Source of the DNA: Algoriphagus sp. Y33
GTDB lineage: Bacteria > Bacteroidota > Bacteroidia > Cytophagales > Cyclobacteriaceae
Assembly: GCF_014838715.1 (NCBI RefSeq)
Contig: NZ_CP061947.1
Span: 2,170,001-2,234,000, forward strand
Direction of reading: 5' to 3'
Length of the DNA stretch: 64,000 nt
Below are positions 44,757-52,845 of this stretch, one piece after another. The position numbers and the translations under genes are program-made. A model generated the notes under the pieces. The model was not told where the DNA came from. It worked only from the letters and a program-made list of their open reading frames with translations, and did no database searches. Position 1 is the stretch's first letter. Each line of letters opens with the position of its first letter.

Positions 44757-45944
44757 TCAATACTGAATCGGATCAAAAAAAAGTGTGGCTATCAAAAAGG
44801 AAATTATTGATATAACAAACCCAAACATAAAAATATTATAACTCTTCCTTAGCATCCGGTACTTCACTGAAAGTACTTTTCCCAGATAATAAATATCAGT
44901 AATCATACTTCCGTATAAGTATCCCCCGTCCTCCATCAACGTATACATCCCTTCCTTATATTCAGAAAGTGACATTTCGTGGAAATTCCCAAAGTAGAGG
45001 AGATTACCTTGTTTCTTTTGGATATCCTCTTTAGTCACCACCCCGTTAGATACCTTGGGTCTGGTAGCCAAAATAGCAAAAACCATCGCCGTAAGACATG
45101 TAGCCACCAGCAAAAATGTAGGAATCATATAATTGGGATACTCCTCCAGCTTACGGATCAAGACCGTCACTACTATGGATAAGATGATCGAATTCACGGA
45201 TATCATGATATTGGCTTTGTTGTCCGCTAAAGCCGAAAGCTGCAAATGATTGGTAGAAGTAACGCGGAACATCGTCTCTACTCCCCGTTCAGACTTCTTT
45301 TTATCCTTTTTATTTTTTTTCCCCTGAGAACTGGACTCTTCCTCTTTCAATGCTTCTTTTATCTTCATTTCAATAAGTTTCAGATTTTTTTCCTTTCCCG
45401 GCTGCAGAAATCTCCTCGCATACTCGGTATGGTAGCGATGCGAAAGCATAAATACTTGACTGCCTCTCAACCAATCACTGAGTGGAACTTTCCCATATCC
45501 TGAATTTTCCTTTTCCTTTTTCAATAAAAGCGTTTGCTCATAAAACTTCTCTGAACTCAAGTGATACAAATCCGCATCACATATGATTTCTTCCAACAGG
45601 TTTTGAGGATTTTGGGGAATCCTTGTCGCTAGAATAATGGATTTTATCCGGTCAACCCGTTCCTTCCCAATCCCCAGTTGCAGCAAGCATTCCTGCGCTA
45701 TCTTTGCTCCCCGTGCCTCATGCCCCTCTCCTTTTCCTTCCCAATAGCCCACATCATGCATCCATCCTGCAAAAAATAAATCCTCGCTCTCCTCTCTCGC
45801 TAGTTTGTAGTACTCGCCTATCTCTCTGACTTTCTCCACAATCTGCAGTGTATGATCAATGTTATGATAGCAAATCTCGGATTTTTGCCTATTTTCAAAC
45901 ATGTTCCTGATCCAGGATTCGAATTTTTCCAATTGTTTATCCAC
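44757..45944 (-). CDS. HD-domain phosphohydrolase fused to a Pycsar-effector-like transmembrane domain (PycTM)
   Basis: The protein has 395 residues. The N-terminal HD domain (about 1-190) shows His27/His31 in 'CYHNIDHT', the HD pair His63-Asp64 in 'GWMHDVGY', 'EGHEARGA' and Asp123/Asp125 in 'ICDADLYHLS'. A lysine-rich linker (205-220) follows. The rest matches the Pycsar system effector family: 'FRVTSTNHLQLSALADNKAN' then helices near 247-265 and 273-293, a conserved 'SLSEYKEGM' cytosolic part, and a last helix near 371-390. PycTM proteins respond to cyclic nucleotides in anti-phage defence. The HD part could degrade such a nucleotide. No cyclase gene is nearby in this window. Confidence 0.82.
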   Translation of the reverse strand: MDKQLEKFESWIRNMFENRQKSEICYHNIDHTLQIVEKVREIGEYYKLAREESEDLFFAGWMHDVGYWEGKGEGHEARGAKIAQECLLQLGIGKERVDRIKSIILATRIPQNPQNLLEEIICDADLYHLSSEKFYEQTLLLKKEKENSGYGKVPLSDWLRGSQVFMLSHRYHTEYARRFLQPGKEKNLKLIEMKIKEALKEEESSSQGKKNKKDKKKSERGVETMFRVTSTNHLQLSALADNKANIMISVNSIILSIVVTVLIRKLEEYPNYMIPTFLLVATCLTAMVFAILATRPKVSNGVVTKEDIQKKQGNLLYFGNFHEMSLSEYKEGMYTLMEDGGYLYGSMITDIYYLGKVLSVKYRMLRKSYNIFMFGFVISIISFLIATLFFDPIQY

Positions 45945-46003: not shown

Positions 46004-46855
46004 ATGCATTACTTCAATATATTAGTCTTACTCCTATTTCTGACCAGTAAATGTAGCCCGAGTGTATCGGATTTGGAAAACATGCCATTTCCTGAAGGAT
46101 ATAAACTGGAAACATTTGAGAAAATTATACTTCAAGATGAAATGGAGGAAATTTCCGGCTTGGAATGGGTTGGTAAGGATCAGCTTTGGGCTATAGAAGA
46201 TGAATCTTCCATTATTTATAGACTTGACCCGAAAACAGGCAAAATTCTAAAAAAAAAGAAATTTGCAAAGAACAAGGATATTGAAGATCTCTTGGTCCGT
46301 GACAAAGTCGCCTGGGTTCTACAAAGCAACGGAACTCTCTACGAAGTCACTTCTCCGCTCAGCAAAAATCCAGAAACTACCCTACACCATTTTCCAGTCA
46401 AAAAAAAGAGGGATATTGAGGCAATAATAGCTTCCAAAACAGAACCATACTTGTTTGTTGTTTGTAAAGCTTGTAAATGGGACATTGGGCCTGAACAAGC
46501 TTCTATTTTTAGGTTTGACCTGACTACTAAAAGCTATGATTCTATCCCGTTCACTGTCTTGAAAAGAGAAGATTTACAGCCTTTGTTACTGACCAAAAAG
46601 ACAGAACCATTGAAAATACAGCCTTCTGCGGCGGCATTGCATCCGATAGAAAATCTTATCTATATTCTCTCTTCCAGTGGTAAGTGGCTATGTATTACGG
46701 ATACGGATTTCAATCCGAAAAATGTATATAGGCTAGATTCTAGGTTATTCAAACAACCCGAGGGGATTACATTCGATCCACAGGGCAATATGTACATATC
46801 AAATGAAGCGCAAGACGGTGACGCCAATATTCTCAAATTCACTTATACCCCATGA
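46004..46855 (+). CDS. SdiA-regulated-like beta-propeller lipoprotein
   Basis: The protein has 283 residues. A lipoprotein signal ends in LTSKC with Cys17 as the lipidation site. The body is repetitive beta-propeller sequence ('ISGLEWVGKDQLWAIEDESS', 'YRLDPKTGKILKKKKFAKN', 'QPEGITFDPQGNMYISNEA'), like the SdiA-regulated family. Function is unknown; it is probably an extracytoplasmic binding or phytase-like protein. Its stop overlaps the next start by four bases (ATGA at 46852-46855), so it is translationally coupled to the phosphoesterase-barrel gene. Confidence 0.8.
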   Translation: MHYFNILVLLLFLTSKCSPSVSDLENMPFPEGYKLETFEKIILQDEMEEISGLEWVGKDQLWAIEDESSIIYRLDPKTGKILKKKKFAKNKDIEDLLVRDKVAWVLQSNGTLYEVTSPLSKNPETTLHHFPVKKKRDIEAIIASKTEPYLFVVCKACKWDIGPEQASIFRFDLTTKSYDSIPFTVLKREDLQPLLLTKKTEPLKIQPSAAALHPIENLIYILSSSGKWLCITDTDFNPKNVYRLDSRLFKQPEGITFDPQGNMYISNEAQDGDANILKFTYTP

Positions 46856-49800
46856 AGAAATTTATTTTGCTTCTGATTTTTAGCACACTGTCGTCTATTC
46901 TATGGGCACAGCAGGAAGCTTCGCTAAAATTCCGTATTTACCTGATCGGGGACGCGGGAGAAATGGAAAATGGTCATCATCCAGTAGTTGAAGATCTGCG
47001 GGGCAAACTTCAAAATGATGGAAATATCCAAACCCACATCATATACTTAGGTGATGATATATATCCCTCCGGTATGCCTGACTATGAAAATAAAGACAGG
47101 AAAGAGGCTGAACTGATATTGAAGACACAGCTCGATCTGTATCAGTACGTTTCAGGAAAAATTTGGATGGTGCCCGGCAACCACGATTGGGAACGGGGAA
47201 AATCCGGTGGCTGGGCTGCGGTGCTTCGTGCGGAAGAGTATGTCTTGGACAATTATCCCGAAGACAAGGTGGAGTGGATACCAAGTGGTGGCTGTCCCGG
47301 TCCCAATGTGATACCGTTAGATGCAGAGACAATTCTGATTACCCTGGATAGCCAGTGGTGGCTACAGCTCAAGGACAAACCCGCTGCAGATTCAGATTGT
47401 GAGTACAAGTCAGAAGATGAAGTTTTGGCTGCTCTGGGGTATGTTTTTGAAGAAAATCAGGATAAAACCATCTTGGTGGCAATGCATCATCCCCTCCGAT
47501 CCTATGGACCACATAATGGTGCTTACAGCTGGAAAGATCATCTGTTTCCGCTCACTGCAACCTCACCAAACTTATATATCCCTCTACCGATAATTGGTTC
47601 CATTTATCCATTATATAGAAGCTGGTTTGGGGACATACAAGATCTTCCCCACCCAAAATATGAAGCGATGACCAGAGCTTTGGACAGGATTTTTGAAAGT
47701 CATCCCAATGTAATACATGTTGCGGGGCATGAGCATGGCCTGGCATATACACGGGAGAACAATGTGCACTATGTCATCAGCGGTGCCGGGGCCAAAAACA
47801 CCTACATAAAAAAGCGTAATCCTGCAGACTTCACTTATCCCATGCAGGGTTATGCAGCGTTGGATTTTTATGACAATCATGAAGTAAAGATTGCCTTTTT
47901 TGATCCCCTGAAGACAGAACCACTCTATGAAGCACAGTTAATAGAGCCATTTGCGGGCAGTATTTCGGAACTGGAATTGTTTGACCGAAGCATACCCGAA
48001 AAAGTCACACGTCCCATTTCTACCCAATACTTGCATGGGAAAGGTTACTATAATTTCTTGGGAAAAAACTACCGCGAATCTTGGGCTATACCCGCCACTT
48101 TCGAATCCATAGATATCACCACAGCCAAAACAGGCCTTAAAATCATCAAAAAAGGTGGTGGCTTACAAACACATTCCTTAAGACTGGCTAACAAAGACGG
48201 CAAGGAATATGTGATGCGCTCCGTCAACAAATATCCTGAAAAGGCACTTTCACCGGAACTCCGCCAAACTATCGCCAAACAGGTAGTAGAGGATCAAATC
48301 TCTTCTTCACACCCCTATGCGGCACTCGCAGTAGCCAGACTGGCTGAGGAAGTTGGGGTAGTGCACACCAACCCTAAAATAGTCTATTTACCCGATGACC
48401 CTTTGTTGGGGATTTACAGAAAGGATTTTGGAGATGATTTGTATCTTTTTGAAGAGCGGGAAATAGCGGGAAAAGACGCTCCCGAAGATGTGAAGTTTTT
48501 CAGCACGGACAAAATGCTCAAAAAAATCCATGGTGACAACGATCATCAGGTAATGCAGAAGGAAGTTTTGAAAGCCAGAATATTTGATTTTTGGATAGCC
48601 GATTGGGACCGCCATGACGATCAGTGGAGATGGGTTGGAGAAAAAGGAAAAAAAGGGTGGGAATTCACTCCTATGCCGAGAGATAGAGATCAGGCATTTT
48701 TCGTAAACCAAGGCATACTTCCAAAAATTGCAAGCCGAAAATGGTTAGATCCGCGTTTTCAGGGATTTGATTATACCCCTCCCCGCTTTGTATCAGGGTT
48801 TATGTTTAACCCGAGATATTTTGACCGCAGCTTTCTAAATGAACTGGATCGGGAAGATTGGGAAAAAGCATTGGACAAGATCATCCCCCAGATGAGTGAG
48901 CAAACGATCTCAGAGGCATTTAGAGACTGGCCCGATACCATTGCGGCAAAGGATGCTCCCGAGATTCAGGCAAAACTTCGCCAGCGAAAAACGTGGTTAA
49001 AAGAAGAGATGCTGAAACATTACGCATTCCTGGCCAAGAATGTCGATATCGTGGGCTCCAATAAAAATGAGGAATTTGAAATAACCTACCGCGAAGATGG
49101 TCGGGTAAAAGTGGAACTGAGAAAAATCGATAAATCAGGAAACTTGGAACAGAAACTTTATGAGCGAACTTTCCTTCCCGAGGAAACCCGGGAAATCCGA
49201 CTTTATGGACTAAAAGGCGGGGATACTTTTCGTTCCAAGGGAGAAGGACCGGGTAAAATCAAAGTGAGAATAATTCCGGGAAACGGAGAAAAAATAGTTG
49301 AAGACAAAGGCTATACAAAAAAGAAGAATACGCTCATTTACCAAAACCCCAAAGAAAAACGATCACTGGAACTAGGTGAAAGCGCTAAAATCAAATATGC
49401 ACCTTCTCTTTCCTATTTAAACTACAACAGAAAAGAATTCAAGTATGACAAACTTATGCCATTGGCTTCTGTTGCGTTCAATCGGGATGATGGCCTCTTC
49501 TTGGGAGCCGGAGTACTATGGGAAAAGCAGGGCTTCAAAAAAGAGCCATTTTCTATCCGCCAATCCATTGTGGGCAATTATGCGATTAGTTCATTTGCTT
49601 TCAATATTGAATACAAAGGCCATGCAGTGGATGTACTGGGAAACCTTGATGTAGTGTGGAAAGCTGATGTAAAGGCACCTGACTTTGCTTTCAACTTCTT
49701 CGGAATTGGAAATGAGACTGAATACAACACAGGCATTTATAACATAGACTACTACAGAGCACGATTCAACTGGTATGAATTGTATTCAGGATTACAAACA

Positions 49801-50499
49801 AAACTGGGTGAAAGCGGAACCTTAACAGTCGGGCCGCACTACCAGATGTTTAGATTTGATTCGGATGACAATGCCGGTAAGTTCGTTACCTCCCCCGAAA
49901 GTGGTCTGGATCAGGCAATTTTGGAAAAGACCAAATTATACACCGGACTTTCCTCCAAAATTGTTTTTGACAGAAGAGATCACAAAGAACTACCCAGCAG
50001 AGGGTTGTACTTTGAAGGGCAGGCAAAAAGAATGTGGGGACTGAACGATTACGCCGGGAACTTCACTAGAATTGATGGCGAACTTGCCCTATATTGGTCA
50101 TTTAGGTATCCTTCCAGATTAGTCTGGGCTACTAGATTTGGTGGCGGAAAGAACTGGGGTGATTTTGAATTTTTTCAAGGACAAACGCTTGGTGGCTTGG
50201 ATAACCTACGCGGTTACAGAAGATACCGCTTCAACGGTGATGCAATGGTTTACAACAATACTGAAGTCAGAATCCGACTATTCAATCTGAAAACCTATAT
50301 ACTTCCTGCTACTGTAGGGATATTGGCGTACAATGATTTCGGGCGCGTGTGGTTACAAAACGAAAAATCAACTAAATGGCACAATTCAGTAGGTACCGGA
50401 ATCTGGCTGGCACCGCTAAATCAGCTAGTAGCGACCTTTTCTGTAGGCTTCAATGAGGAGGAGTTTTTACCCTTCTTTACCTTCGGATATCAATTTTGA
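46852..50499 (+). CDS. Outer-membrane fusion: metallophosphoesterase, possible kinase-fold middle region, BamA/TamA-like barrel
   Basis: The protein has 1215 residues with a signal peptide (1-19). Residues 25-350 are a calcineurin-like phosphoesterase: GDAGE (Asp34), GDDIY (Asp68), GNHDW (110-114), 'MHHPLRSYG' (His212) and GHEHG (292-296). Residues about 425-720 lack a clear family. They show a Gly-rich strand 'KKGGGLQTHSLRLANKDG', a 'YVMRS' strand, then 'WIADWDRHDDQW' (581-592) and 'MPRDRDQAF' (608-616), an order resembling CotH/Fam20C-like kinases. From about 860 to the end is a surface-antigen-type barrel with terminal aromatic 'TFGYQF'. The phosphatase part would face the periplasm or surface. 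Only the first and last domains are secure. Confidence 0.85.
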   Translation: MKKFILLLIFSTLSSILWAQQEASLKFRIYLIGDAGEMENGHHPVVEDLRGKLQNDGNIQTHIIYLGDDIYPSGMPDYENKDRKEAELILKTQLDLYQYVSGKIWMVPGNHDWERGKSGGWAAVLRAEEYVLDNYPEDKVEWIPSGGCPGPNVIPLDAETILITLDSQWWLQLKDKPAADSDCEYKSEDEVLAALGYVFEENQDKTILVAMHHPLRSYGPHNGAYSWKDHLFPLTATSPNLYIPLPIIGSIYPLYRSWFGDIQDLPHPKYEAMTRALDRIFESHPNVIHVAGHEHGLAYTRENNVHYVISGAGAKNTYIKKRNPADFTYPMQGYAALDFYDNHEVKIAFFDPLKTEPLYEAQLIEPFAGSISELELFDRSIPEKVTRPISTQYLHGKGYYNFLGKNYRESWAIPATFESIDITTAKTGLKIIKKGGGLQTHSLRLANKDGKEYVMRSVNKYPEKALSPELRQTIAKQVVEDQISSSHPYAALAVARLAEEVGVVHTNPKIVYLPDDPLLGIYRKDFGDDLYLFEEREIAGKDAPEDVKFFSTDKMLKKIHGDNDHQVMQKEVLKARIFDFWIADWDRHDDQWRWVGEKGKKGWEFTPMPRDRDQAFFVNQGILPKIASRKWLDPRFQGFDYTPPRFVSGFMFNPRYFDRSFLNELDREDWEKALDKIIPQMSEQTISEAFRDWPDTIAAKDAPEIQAKLRQRKTWLKEEMLKHYAFLAKNVDIVGSNKNEEFEITYREDGRVKVELRKIDKSGNLEQKLYERTFLPEETREIRLYGLKGGDTFRSKGEGPGKIKVRIIPGNGEKIVEDKGYTKKKNTLIYQNPKEKRSLELGESAKIKYAPSLSYLNYNRKEFKYDKLMPLASVAFNRDDGLFLGAGVLWEKQGFKKEPFSIRQSIVGNYAISSFAFNIEYKGHAVDVLGNLDVVWKADVKAPDFAFNFFGIGNETEYNTGIYNIDYYRARFNWYELYSGLQTKLGESGTLTVGPHYQMFRFDSDDNAGKFVTSPESGLDQAILEKTKLYTGLSSKIVFDRRDHKELPSRGLYFEGQAKRMWGLNDYAGNFTRIDGELALYWSFRYPSRLVWATRFGGGKNWGDFEFFQGQTLGGLDNLRGYRRYRFNGDAMVYNNTEVRIRLFNLKTYILPATVGILAYNDFGRVWLQNEKSTKWHNSVGTGIWLAPLNQLVATFSVGFNEEEFLPFFTFGYQF

Positions 50500-52845
50500 C
50501 GAAGTATCAGTTGTAGGAGGAGTTTTTGAAGTCATCGCTACCCGAATAGCTTTTAACCCATGAACTCCCTGCATCTCTTCCAGTTCAAGTTCCTCAATTT
50601 GATCTTGTAGTTTCCCTTTGTTCTGAAGATAATTTATAAAGTCCCTGTACTCCCTGGCTTCCCGCTGCTGAGAATAGACGATGGCAATTTTACCTGGTTG
50701 AACCAAGCGCTCATGAGTTCCTACCACCAAGGCCTTATCAATACGCTTTTTCATGATCTCATAGCGGATATTGTAGGCACCTTCCACATCAAACTTTCGC
50801 TCATCCAAACGAAAACTTATTGAAATAGGTGTGCTATGGGCAAGAATAAGCTGAGTCACTTCAAGTGGACTCTCTAATTCGGGCTTTTTATCCTCGATTA
50901 GATGATATACTTCTATCAAACTTTGAAGTTGCCAAAGTCTTAAGTTTTTCAGATAAATAAGATCAAACTTCCTGTGCTTCACCAAAGACTGACCGATGTA
51001 AATATTGTATTCTATGCCGTCAGTTTTGAATTTCTCAAAGTAGTGGGGAAAAATATTTTGAATTTTCTGTTCTTGCGCATCCATAAAAGATCCTACAGTC
51101 TGATTGATTAACTGAAGGCTTTTTTCGAAGGCTTTTCTATGTCTACTCACTACCTGAAGCTGTGAATCCAAACTATCAAAATAAGCCTTGACCTCCTGTT
51201 GTAAGTCCTTATAAGTTTCACTTAAATGGATAAAAGTGGGTTCTAGCTCGTACTGAAAAAACTCTGTAATCCTTACTTCTTCTTCACTGAGCAAAATCAA
51301 ATTAATCCGACGCTTGTACTCATCAATTTGATCGATAAGACTATCCAGTAAAGGCAAGTAGTGCAAAGTTCCGGCAAGTTCCAAAATAGCTTTTCCCTTA
51401 TCCAGTTGGATAACAAAATCATCGTGAATCGCTTTATTCCGTTCGATGGAGGAGTTTTTTATATCTATGGCCGCATAGAGTGGATACACATCCTGAAACA
51501 GGATCGCTTTTATCTCAGGGTTCCTACCCTCCTCTTCATCCAGCACATAATCCAAGGCAATTTCATCAAACTTCCATTCAACCACAGGATGTATAGCGGT
51601 GAAATTTTTTCTGATAATGGCCTTAATTTTATAATCCAAGTTCTCCGCCTGCCTGTTCAAGGCCAAGGAAAGAGAGGGAGCCAAGTGATCTAGGGTATGA
51701 ACCATCATAGGATCAAAAGTTCCTTTTTCGAAAGAACATATTTCCAAAACCCCTACCAGATTACCGTTATGTCTCAAAGGATATAGGATCACTTCCTGTA
51801 GTCCCATTTCTACCATCCGGTTTACCAGATCCAAATCATCTAGCGTGTCTTGTATATCTTTTAAAAATACAGGCTTATTCACTTGGGAGAGAAATTCCAT
51901 AATCGCATGATAAGGTTCCTCATTTCCGGCTGTCAATAGTCGACGGATCAAATAACTATAGGCCAGTCGACTCTCAGACATAATTATCCTACCGGAAATA
52001 TTCTGCAGTACTGCCAGCCCTACTTTTAAGCCTCCCACACCCAAAAGACTTTTGACAGAATCCTCCACAATCTCCATGAATTCTTCTGAGCTAACCTGAT
52101 CTTGCTTTAGCACAGCTTCATTCAATGTCGCCACGCTCTGCGCCACCGTCAGATCAATCGCTTCCATGATAATAAAGCCATGGAATTCGAAAAGATCCAA
52201 AGGAAGCAATTTCTGTAGACGATCCAGTTCAAACTGGTATGATTCATTTTTGTCACATAATTCAGATGGATTCGGGATTTCCGGTAAATTCCCCTTCGCC
52301 ACTACTCTGACAAACTGTGTATTGAGTTGGATTTGATAGTGCTTATTTACACCGTCTGCTCCTCTGAATTTAAAAATCATCGGAGGAAATTGATTTATAT
52401 TTATTCCGTAAAACTGATGTACGATCATGCTATATACATGTACCAGCTTATCAAATGCCACACGTTCAACGTTTAGATCTTGAGGCATGTTTATTCTACC
52501 ATTTTCATCTAAAAATTGTGCCTTGAAGGTAGGCGTAGCATAAATAGGATTATACTCAAATGGTTTGGATAAGGCTAGGATTTTTTTGTCCTCTTGACCC
52601 GATAGAGGAAATAAGGAACTGAGGATCAAACCAAACCCTAGTCTATTCTGATCATTGTCTAAGATTTGAGGGTCAATGTTTGAGGTCAGCAGCTGAGGAA
52701 ATTTGCTTATCCGTTGCAGATAATCATGATACAGACATGTACCCGGATGTGATTTGTCTGCAAGAGCTTCCCATCTTTCAAATAAAAGTTTAAAGTCAAG
52801 AAAAGAGCTTTTGAAATCCAGCTTAATTTTATCCTGTGAATCCAT
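50467..52845 (-). CDS. Large GAF-domain protein of unknown function
   Basis: The protein has 792 residues, no signal peptide and no membrane segment. A GAF domain is recognisable at about 265-410 ('EFMEIVEDSVKSLLGVGGLK', 'LYPLRHNGNLVGVLEICS'). No kinase, cyclase or HTH output follows; the C-terminal 380 residues are helical ('DSLIDQIDEYKRRINLI') and unassigned. Its 3' end overlaps the convergent barrel gene by 33 bp. It lies 290 bp downstream of the transglutaminase cluster on the same strand; a hairpin at 53020-53043 sits in the gap. A signal-integrating role is plausible. Confidence 0.78.
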   Translation of the reverse strand: MDSQDKIKLDFKSSFLDFKLLFERWEALADKSHPGTCLYHDYLQRISKFPQLLTSNIDPQILDNDQNRLGFGLILSSLFPLSGQEDKKILALSKPFEYNPIYATPTFKAQFLDENGRINMPQDLNVERVAFDKLVHVYSMIVHQFYGININQFPPMIFKFRGADGVNKHYQIQLNTQFVRVVAKGNLPEIPNPSELCDKNESYQFELDRLQKLLPLDLFEFHGFIIMEAIDLTVAQSVATLNEAVLKQDQVSSEEFMEIVEDSVKSLLGVGGLKVGLAVLQNISGRIIMSESRLAYSYLIRRLLTAGNEEPYHAIMEFLSQVNKPVFLKDIQDTLDDLDLVNRMVEMGLQEVILYPLRHNGNLVGVLEICSFEKGTFDPMMVHTLDHLAPSLSLALNRQAENLDYKIKAIIRKNFTAIHPVVEWKFDEIALDYVLDEEEGRNPEIKAILFQDVYPLYAAIDIKNSSIERNKAIHDDFVIQLDKGKAILELAGTLHYLPLLDSLIDQIDEYKRRINLILLSEEEVRITEFFQYELEPTFIHLSETYKDLQQEVKAYFDSLDSQLQVVSRHRKAFEKSLQLINQTVGSFMDAQEQKIQNIFPHYFEKFKTDGIEYNIYIGQSLVKHRKFDLIYLKNLRLWQLQSLIEVYHLIEDKKPELESPLEVTQLILAHSTPISISFRLDERKFDVEGAYNIRYEIMKKRIDKALVVGTHERLVQPGKIAIVYSQQREAREYRDFINYLQNKGKLQDQIEELELEEMQGVHGLKAIRVAMTSKTPPTTDTSSKLISEGKEG

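Follow-up and report, generated by a model that had tools for sequence, protein, structure and literature searches.

A kinase-fold domain family, joined in part of its members to a phosphoesterase and an Omp85 barrel, in Algoriphagus and other Bacteroidota

CotH and Fam20C became model cases of kinases that work outside the cytoplasm, and to our knowledge few bacterial kinases acting there are known. Among outer-membrane proteins, an Omp85 'Metallo' class carrying PF00149 was already defined by Heinz and Lithgow (2014; PMC4104836); the accessible part of that paper calls PF00149 a metalloprotease, discusses periplasmic or exported placement, and names no kinase. Here we describe a fusion gene of Algoriphagus sp. 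Y33, contained in a window of 64,000 nucleotides (the whole stretch of DNA analysed, positions 2,170,001 to 2,234,000 of contig NZ_CP061947.1), that encodes a signal sequence, a calcineurin-like phosphoesterase, a domain of predicted kinase fold and an Omp85 barrel. We think it probable, with room left for doubt, that the product is an outer-membrane-anchored envelope enzyme in which a kinase domain belonging to a new family and a phosphoesterase sit on one Omp85 barrel, with a conserved gene neighbourhood. This reading draws on a computed fold, conserved sites, several architectures and a gene association. Each ingredient was known before; the new elements are the kinase-fold family itself, its location at the outer membrane and the genes linked to it. 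The gene and its parts, in window coordinates, are as follows.

46852..50499, forward strand: fusion gene, 1215 amino acids (signal sequence, phosphoesterase, kinase-fold domain, Omp85 barrel)
46852..46911, forward strand: signal sequence, residues 1-20, N-terminus judged by eye
46930..47886, forward strand: calcineurin-like phosphoesterase, residues about 27-345, from Pfam PF00149 at 27-228, motifs and Foldseek
48034..49056, forward strand: kinase-fold domain, residues 395-735, from fold and sequence comparisons
49450..50496, forward strand: Omp85/BamA-like beta barrel, residues about 867-1215, from Pfam, the full model and Foldseek

The reading frame is open over 1215 codons in the window's list of open reading frames (ORFs), and its start codon overlaps the stop codon of the propeller gene upstream as ATGA (46852-46855), the overlap reported in the initial annotation. 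Its nearest named relative found, from Algoriphagus resistens, is 89% identical over the middle domain. Pfam identifies Metallophos PF00149 at residues 27-228 (E = 5.4e-7; 30.7 bits against a cut-off of 21.5) and Omp85 at 963-1203 (E = 4.2e-12; 46.6 bits against a cut-off of 24), and matches nothing at E <= 1 between them. All of the phosphoesterase motifs that the initial annotation listed are present (GDAGE at 33, GDDIY at 67, GNHDW at 109 and GHEHG at 292), as is an HH at 212, and the surface-antigen barrel it placed at the C-terminus is the Omp85 match. It was also right that the middle region has no Pfam assignment, but the bounds it gave, 425-720, were too narrow: the domain spans about 395-735. 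Foldseek searches with a model of the full mature protein (predicted local distance difference test, pLDDT, 87.7; predicted template modelling score, pTM, 0.83) match the phosphoesterase part to GAP50 (3tgh, E = 1.4e-10) and show that the barrel resembles BamA/TamA/Sam50 folds. In this model an extra beta-rich segment at about 730-820 precedes the barrel; no POTRA model occurs among the Pfam matches of the fusion, and this segment was not compared on its own. The same genome has a second long ORF of 1245 amino acids with a Metallophos match (G000:C1:1698800-1699519), which neither full-length nor middle-domain searches recovered.

The predicted structure of the middle domain is two-lobed, and fold comparison places it in the group of CotH, HipA/CtkA, type II phosphatidylinositol 4-kinase (PI4KII) and Fam20C. 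The kinase-like reading proposed in the initial annotation is thus supported by the fold as well as by sites conserved in the expected order. Each of these relatives differs from the present domain in some way. CotH spore-coat kinases (PF08757; 5jda, 5jd9) do not include it at the sequence level and contrast with its position within or beside outer-membrane barrel genes. The CtkA/HipA-type kinases (PF07804; 3akj, 2wiu) have other fusion partners, as do the Fam20/Golgi casein kinases (4kqb, 5yh0), which score a lower Z than CotH and PI4KII. PI4KII (4wtv, 4yc4) is a human lipid kinase, and it is not among the six hits of a sequence-profile search with the middle domain. The profile alignment puts Asp586 on the Asp of CtkA FDRHNGNW. 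The domain has five candidate sites.

48154..48171, forward strand: Gly-rich loop GGGLQT, residues 435-440, from motif position and alignment
48217..48231, forward strand: Arg456 and Lys460, where an N-lobe strand ends and beyond it, candidate phosphate-binding residues
48451..48453, forward strand: Glu534 at a strand end, possible hinge, from alignment and strand order
48601..48627, forward strand: putative catalytic-loop motif DWDRHDDQW, residues 584-592, from the CtkA alignment and conservation
48676..48699, forward strand: putative metal-site motif PRDRDQAF, residues 609-616, with Asp611 and Asp613, from conservation

Order, motif and the CtkA alignment together suggest these roles: Asp586 is probably catalytic, and Asp611 and Asp613 probably bind metal. 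In a 130-row alignment (A1 + A2, which includes some near-duplicates and the window sequence twice), Arg456, Glu534, Asp584, Arg587 and Asp611 are invariant, and Asp586 (126 rows), Asp613 (129) and Lys460 (128) nearly so. The numbering of Asp586, Asp611 and Asp613 in the initial annotation is exact, and their conservation bears out its expectation. The Gly-rich loop, basic residue, catalytic-type Asp and metal-type Asp follow one another in the order expected of a kinase. Substitution D228Q or D251A abolishes the activity of CotH, according to PMC7821199, and the spacing of 23 between those residues resembles the 25 between Asp586 and Asp611 here. Within the 46 full fusions every listed kinase Asp, Glu, Arg and Lys is intact, whereas at least one of seven checked phosphoesterase residues is lost in 10; the kinase part therefore looks more constrained.

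The fold might serve something other than phosphorylation, either AMPylation or another group transfer, as in the kinase-fold protein SelO, which AMPylates, or regulation by a pseudokinase. The position expected of the ATP-lysine strand is occupied by an invariant Arg456 (the strand RSVNKY begins at this residue) with Lys460 further on, and four of the 130 rows lack Asp586, as such a role would allow. Conservation of Arg456, Glu534, Asp584 and Asp611 in every row and of Asp586 in nearly all fits catalysis better, and each of the four copies without Asp586 (one each in L032, L033, L034 and L051) adjoins a copy that keeps it. We consider a non-phosphorylating role quite improbable. The pairing of copies with and without Asp586 is an arrangement like that of an active kinase and a pseudokinase partner. 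In three of these loci (L032:5501-8851, L033:5436-8775 and L034:4129-9148), standalone kinase-fold genes whose products have lipoprotein-type N-termini form divergent pairs or a triplet, and one copy per locus has Ser instead of Asp586. The fourth (L051:5600-10819) has kinase-barrel genes in tandem, the second of which has neither the Gly-rich loop nor Asp586 nor Asp613.

Residues 395-735 find matches in 142 of 395 genomes sampled from the phylum. Among 150 matches listed, the ORF is at least 1100 amino acids long in 95, 800-1000 in 40 and under 700 in 15. A survey for fusion partners, suggested in the initial annotation, revealed three forms among the fetched loci, told apart by how much sequence flanks the domain: the full phosphoesterase-kinase-barrel fusion, a kinase-barrel form and the kinase alone. 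Pfam scans of two long fusions found Omp85 in both and Metallophos in one, the other (L129) having a degenerate site. Three of five kinase-barrel relatives gave Omp85, and nothing matched at E <= 0.001 in the remaining two (L007 and L005) or in a standalone form (L035). In two loci the parts are separate proteins encoded by three adjacent, co-oriented genes for a kinase-like, a Metallophos and an Omp85 protein.

L041:2841-6829: split three-gene locus, Metallophos and Omp85 both found by Pfam
L042:4949-9094: split three-gene locus

Judged by eye, the kinase-like and Metallophos proteins of both loci have lipoprotein-type N-termini and the Omp85 protein has a signal sequence. By the same judgement, the N-termini of other standalone forms, a few of which end at contig edges or have no clear start, are of the lipoprotein, signal or single-helix type. 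These secretion-type N-termini suggest that the domain works outside the cytoplasm. In L042, ABC-2 transporter genes lie upstream of the split parts and a gene for an MgtE magnesium transporter lies downstream.

BamA and TamA have their N-terminal parts on the periplasmic side. By inference from these proteins, the Omp85 barrel most likely holds both enzymes at the periplasmic face. In a type V-like scheme, as proposed for the patatin-Omp85 protein PlpD, the barrel would instead export both enzymes to the cell surface. Its C-terminal position behind the enzyme domains suits this idea, and translocation is one of two options that Heinz and Lithgow (2014; PMC4104836) raise for the Metallo class, although that source favours the periplasm. 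We regard export as unlikely, given that standalone forms have no barrel and that enzymes and barrel are separate proteins in L041 and L042. The likeness between that class and the present family consists of PF00149 on an Omp85 barrel; its metalloprotease label differs from the Pfam model, which describes a calcineurin-like phosphoesterase.

That the domain is catalytic, what its acceptor and donor are, how the protein is oriented and whether the two enzymes oppose each other are matters of inference here. The kinase domain would be the core part and would add phosphate to an envelope acceptor (a protein, a lipid or lipopolysaccharide), from which the optional phosphoesterase may remove that phosphate or trim a related one. 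Most economically, this would amount to reversible phosphorylation of an envelope acceptor, opposed by the phosphoesterase where one is present. A protein acceptor, as for CotH and Fam20C, and a lipid one, as for PI4KII, are both conceivable, and the fold cannot decide between them. A specialised envelope lipid or lipopolysaccharide kinase like PI4KII, with the phosphoesterase and a nearby PAP2 protein working on the same lipid pool, is a possibility that we take seriously but would not bet on; we separate it from our favoured reading because it predicts a different acceptor. Weighing against it, the fold does not set the substrate and the standalone copies lack a link to a barrel.

Three genes adjoin the fusion in the window.

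46004..46855, forward strand: propeller-type protein, probable lipoprotein (SdiA-regulated PF06977, E = 6.4e-10, Pfam), overlapping the fusion
44757..45944, reverse strand: HD-PycTM protein, divergent neighbour (PycTM E = 5.3e-34, HD E = 2.4e-8)
50467..52845, reverse strand: 792-amino-acid protein with a weak GAF-like match, convergent, with a 33-nucleotide overlap with the 3' end of the fusion

The initial annotation had called the upstream product a propeller lipoprotein; the family match confirms a propeller type, while its lipoprotein status was judged by eye from its N-terminus. The HD-PycTM protein combines an HD domain with a Pycsar-effector-type membrane domain. Homologues of these and other neighbours recur among 99 fetched long loci (clustering of ORFs of at least 110 amino acids): HD-PycTM in 44, propeller in 31, PPK1 in 19, the GAF-like protein in 18, class III cyclase in 17 and PAP2 in 10. 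Of the 31 loci with a propeller gene, 30 have it upstream in the same orientation, and the GAF-like gene is no more than 1 kb away from the kinase gene in each of its 18 loci; Pfam gave no match for its homologue in L082. The 80 named loci fall into 44 genus-level groups by our labels, with HD-PycTM in 29 groups and PPK1 in 7, plus three PPK1 loci beyond the named set. PPK1 was recognized by four Pfam PPK domains in the L071 member and elsewhere by similarity to it. Six Mucilaginibacter and Pedobacter loci (L082, L083, L109, L112, L113 and L119) have HD-PycTM, PPK1, propeller, GAF-like and kinase-barrel genes in one direction, joined by PAP2 in two of them. The order differs in L063, L071 and L085, where cyclase and PPK1 genes are followed by an HD/PycTM pair in opposite orientation, then by the propeller gene and the fusion.

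Linkage was examined in 80 of the 142 positive genomes, 71 of which contain 95 listed kinase places. Of these places, 50 (50 genomes, 18 families) have PycTM, mostly HD-PycTM, at most 5 kb away, against a prediction of about 0.25, and 24 (20 genomes, 9 families) have PPK1 at most 10 kb away, against about 0.6; both chance figures are rough and assume uniform placement and 4.3 Mb as the mean genome size. Although the genomes are related and do not represent independent events, the range of families involved suggests that the linkage has been kept. PycTM is present in 74 of the 80 kinase-positive genomes and in 6 of 20 kinase-negative ones, which are mostly close kin rather than an even sample; the scores in the latter are weaker than the best of the positive set. 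Some PycTM genes adjoin PPK1.

An anti-phage or envelope-alarm system would have outer-membrane damage signalled through the cyclase and HD-PycTM. The HD-PycTM protein matches PADLOC PycTM (E = 1.8e-19), a class III cyclase is present in part of the loci, and the fusion itself weakly matches the candidate defence model PDC-M03A at 558-601 (E = 0.00083). That last match is limited to the catalytic-loop region, and a PycTM link over 18 families is more than we expect of a mobile defence island; we find this explanation very unlikely. Pycsar itself couples a pyrimidine cyclase to a PycTM effector; here the neighbour is HD-PycTM, and 17 of the 99 loci have a class III cyclase.

For the envelope kinase that we favour, partners would be the HD-PycTM membrane protein and the propeller protein, with PPK1 and the class III cyclase in part of the relatives, and the neighbourhood suggests a link with polyphosphate or nucleotide status. 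The main problem is the phosphate donor, because the periplasm is not known to be rich in ATP, and the PPK1 link would be compatible with an involvement of polyphosphate. We advance as a tentative idea, held with low confidence, that PPK1-based polyphosphate metabolism and HD-PycTM (with the cyclase) control reversible outer-envelope phosphorylation by the barrel kinase, possibly with a donor other than cytoplasmic ATP.

Besides the question of periplasmic ATP, several results weigh against an envelope kinase. The leading Foldseek matches have query TM-scores of 0.38-0.44 (below 0.5) and root mean square deviations of 8-11 A. Kinase families appear among Pfam results for 50 members with best E-values of 0.18-0.21, in a scatter of weak matches (DUF1598 in three, HipA_C in two, CotH in one and DUF4135 in one). 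At E = 0.21 and 0.18 we judge the cut-offs for CotH (PF08757, 23.8 bits) and HipA_C (PF07804, 30.5 bits) to be missed. Profile comparison by hhalign, using 30 sequences each of CotH and HipA_C, including a few short fragments, scored 21.3 and 20.9, within the 13.0-25.7 of seven controls from unrelated neighbour families, of which PPK1 exceeded both; this test is weak, since CotH against HipA_C itself reached just 22.6. The CotH alignment sets DWDRH and PRDRDQAF on CotH Asp sites, which we do not count as evidence. Equivalence of single residues to CotH is proposed from sequence, not coordinates, and Asp586 is missing in three standalone copies and one kinase-barrel copy. The two PPK1 genes of the window genome lie away from the fusion, and 71 of the 95 kinase places have no PPK1 within 10 kb.

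By these sequence comparisons the middle domain forms a separate family without a model in Pfam or NCBIfam, for which reason annotation overlooks it; an NCBIfam scan gave no kinase name for the fusion. Searches of openly licensed papers brought up no title or abstract opening describing this kinase domain in such proteins or the gene neighbourhood. If our reading is true, a phosphorylation system of the envelope would be common in Bacteroidota, as the breadth of the domain's occurrence implies. The PycTM and PPK1 links allow genetic testing through gene removal. HD-PycTM may pair with the class III cyclase or may have a role other than phage defence. Histidine-kinase (18 loci) and LytTR (9 loci) neighbour clusters are also recurrent, and we set them aside because these are large families whose recurrence is likely due to chance.
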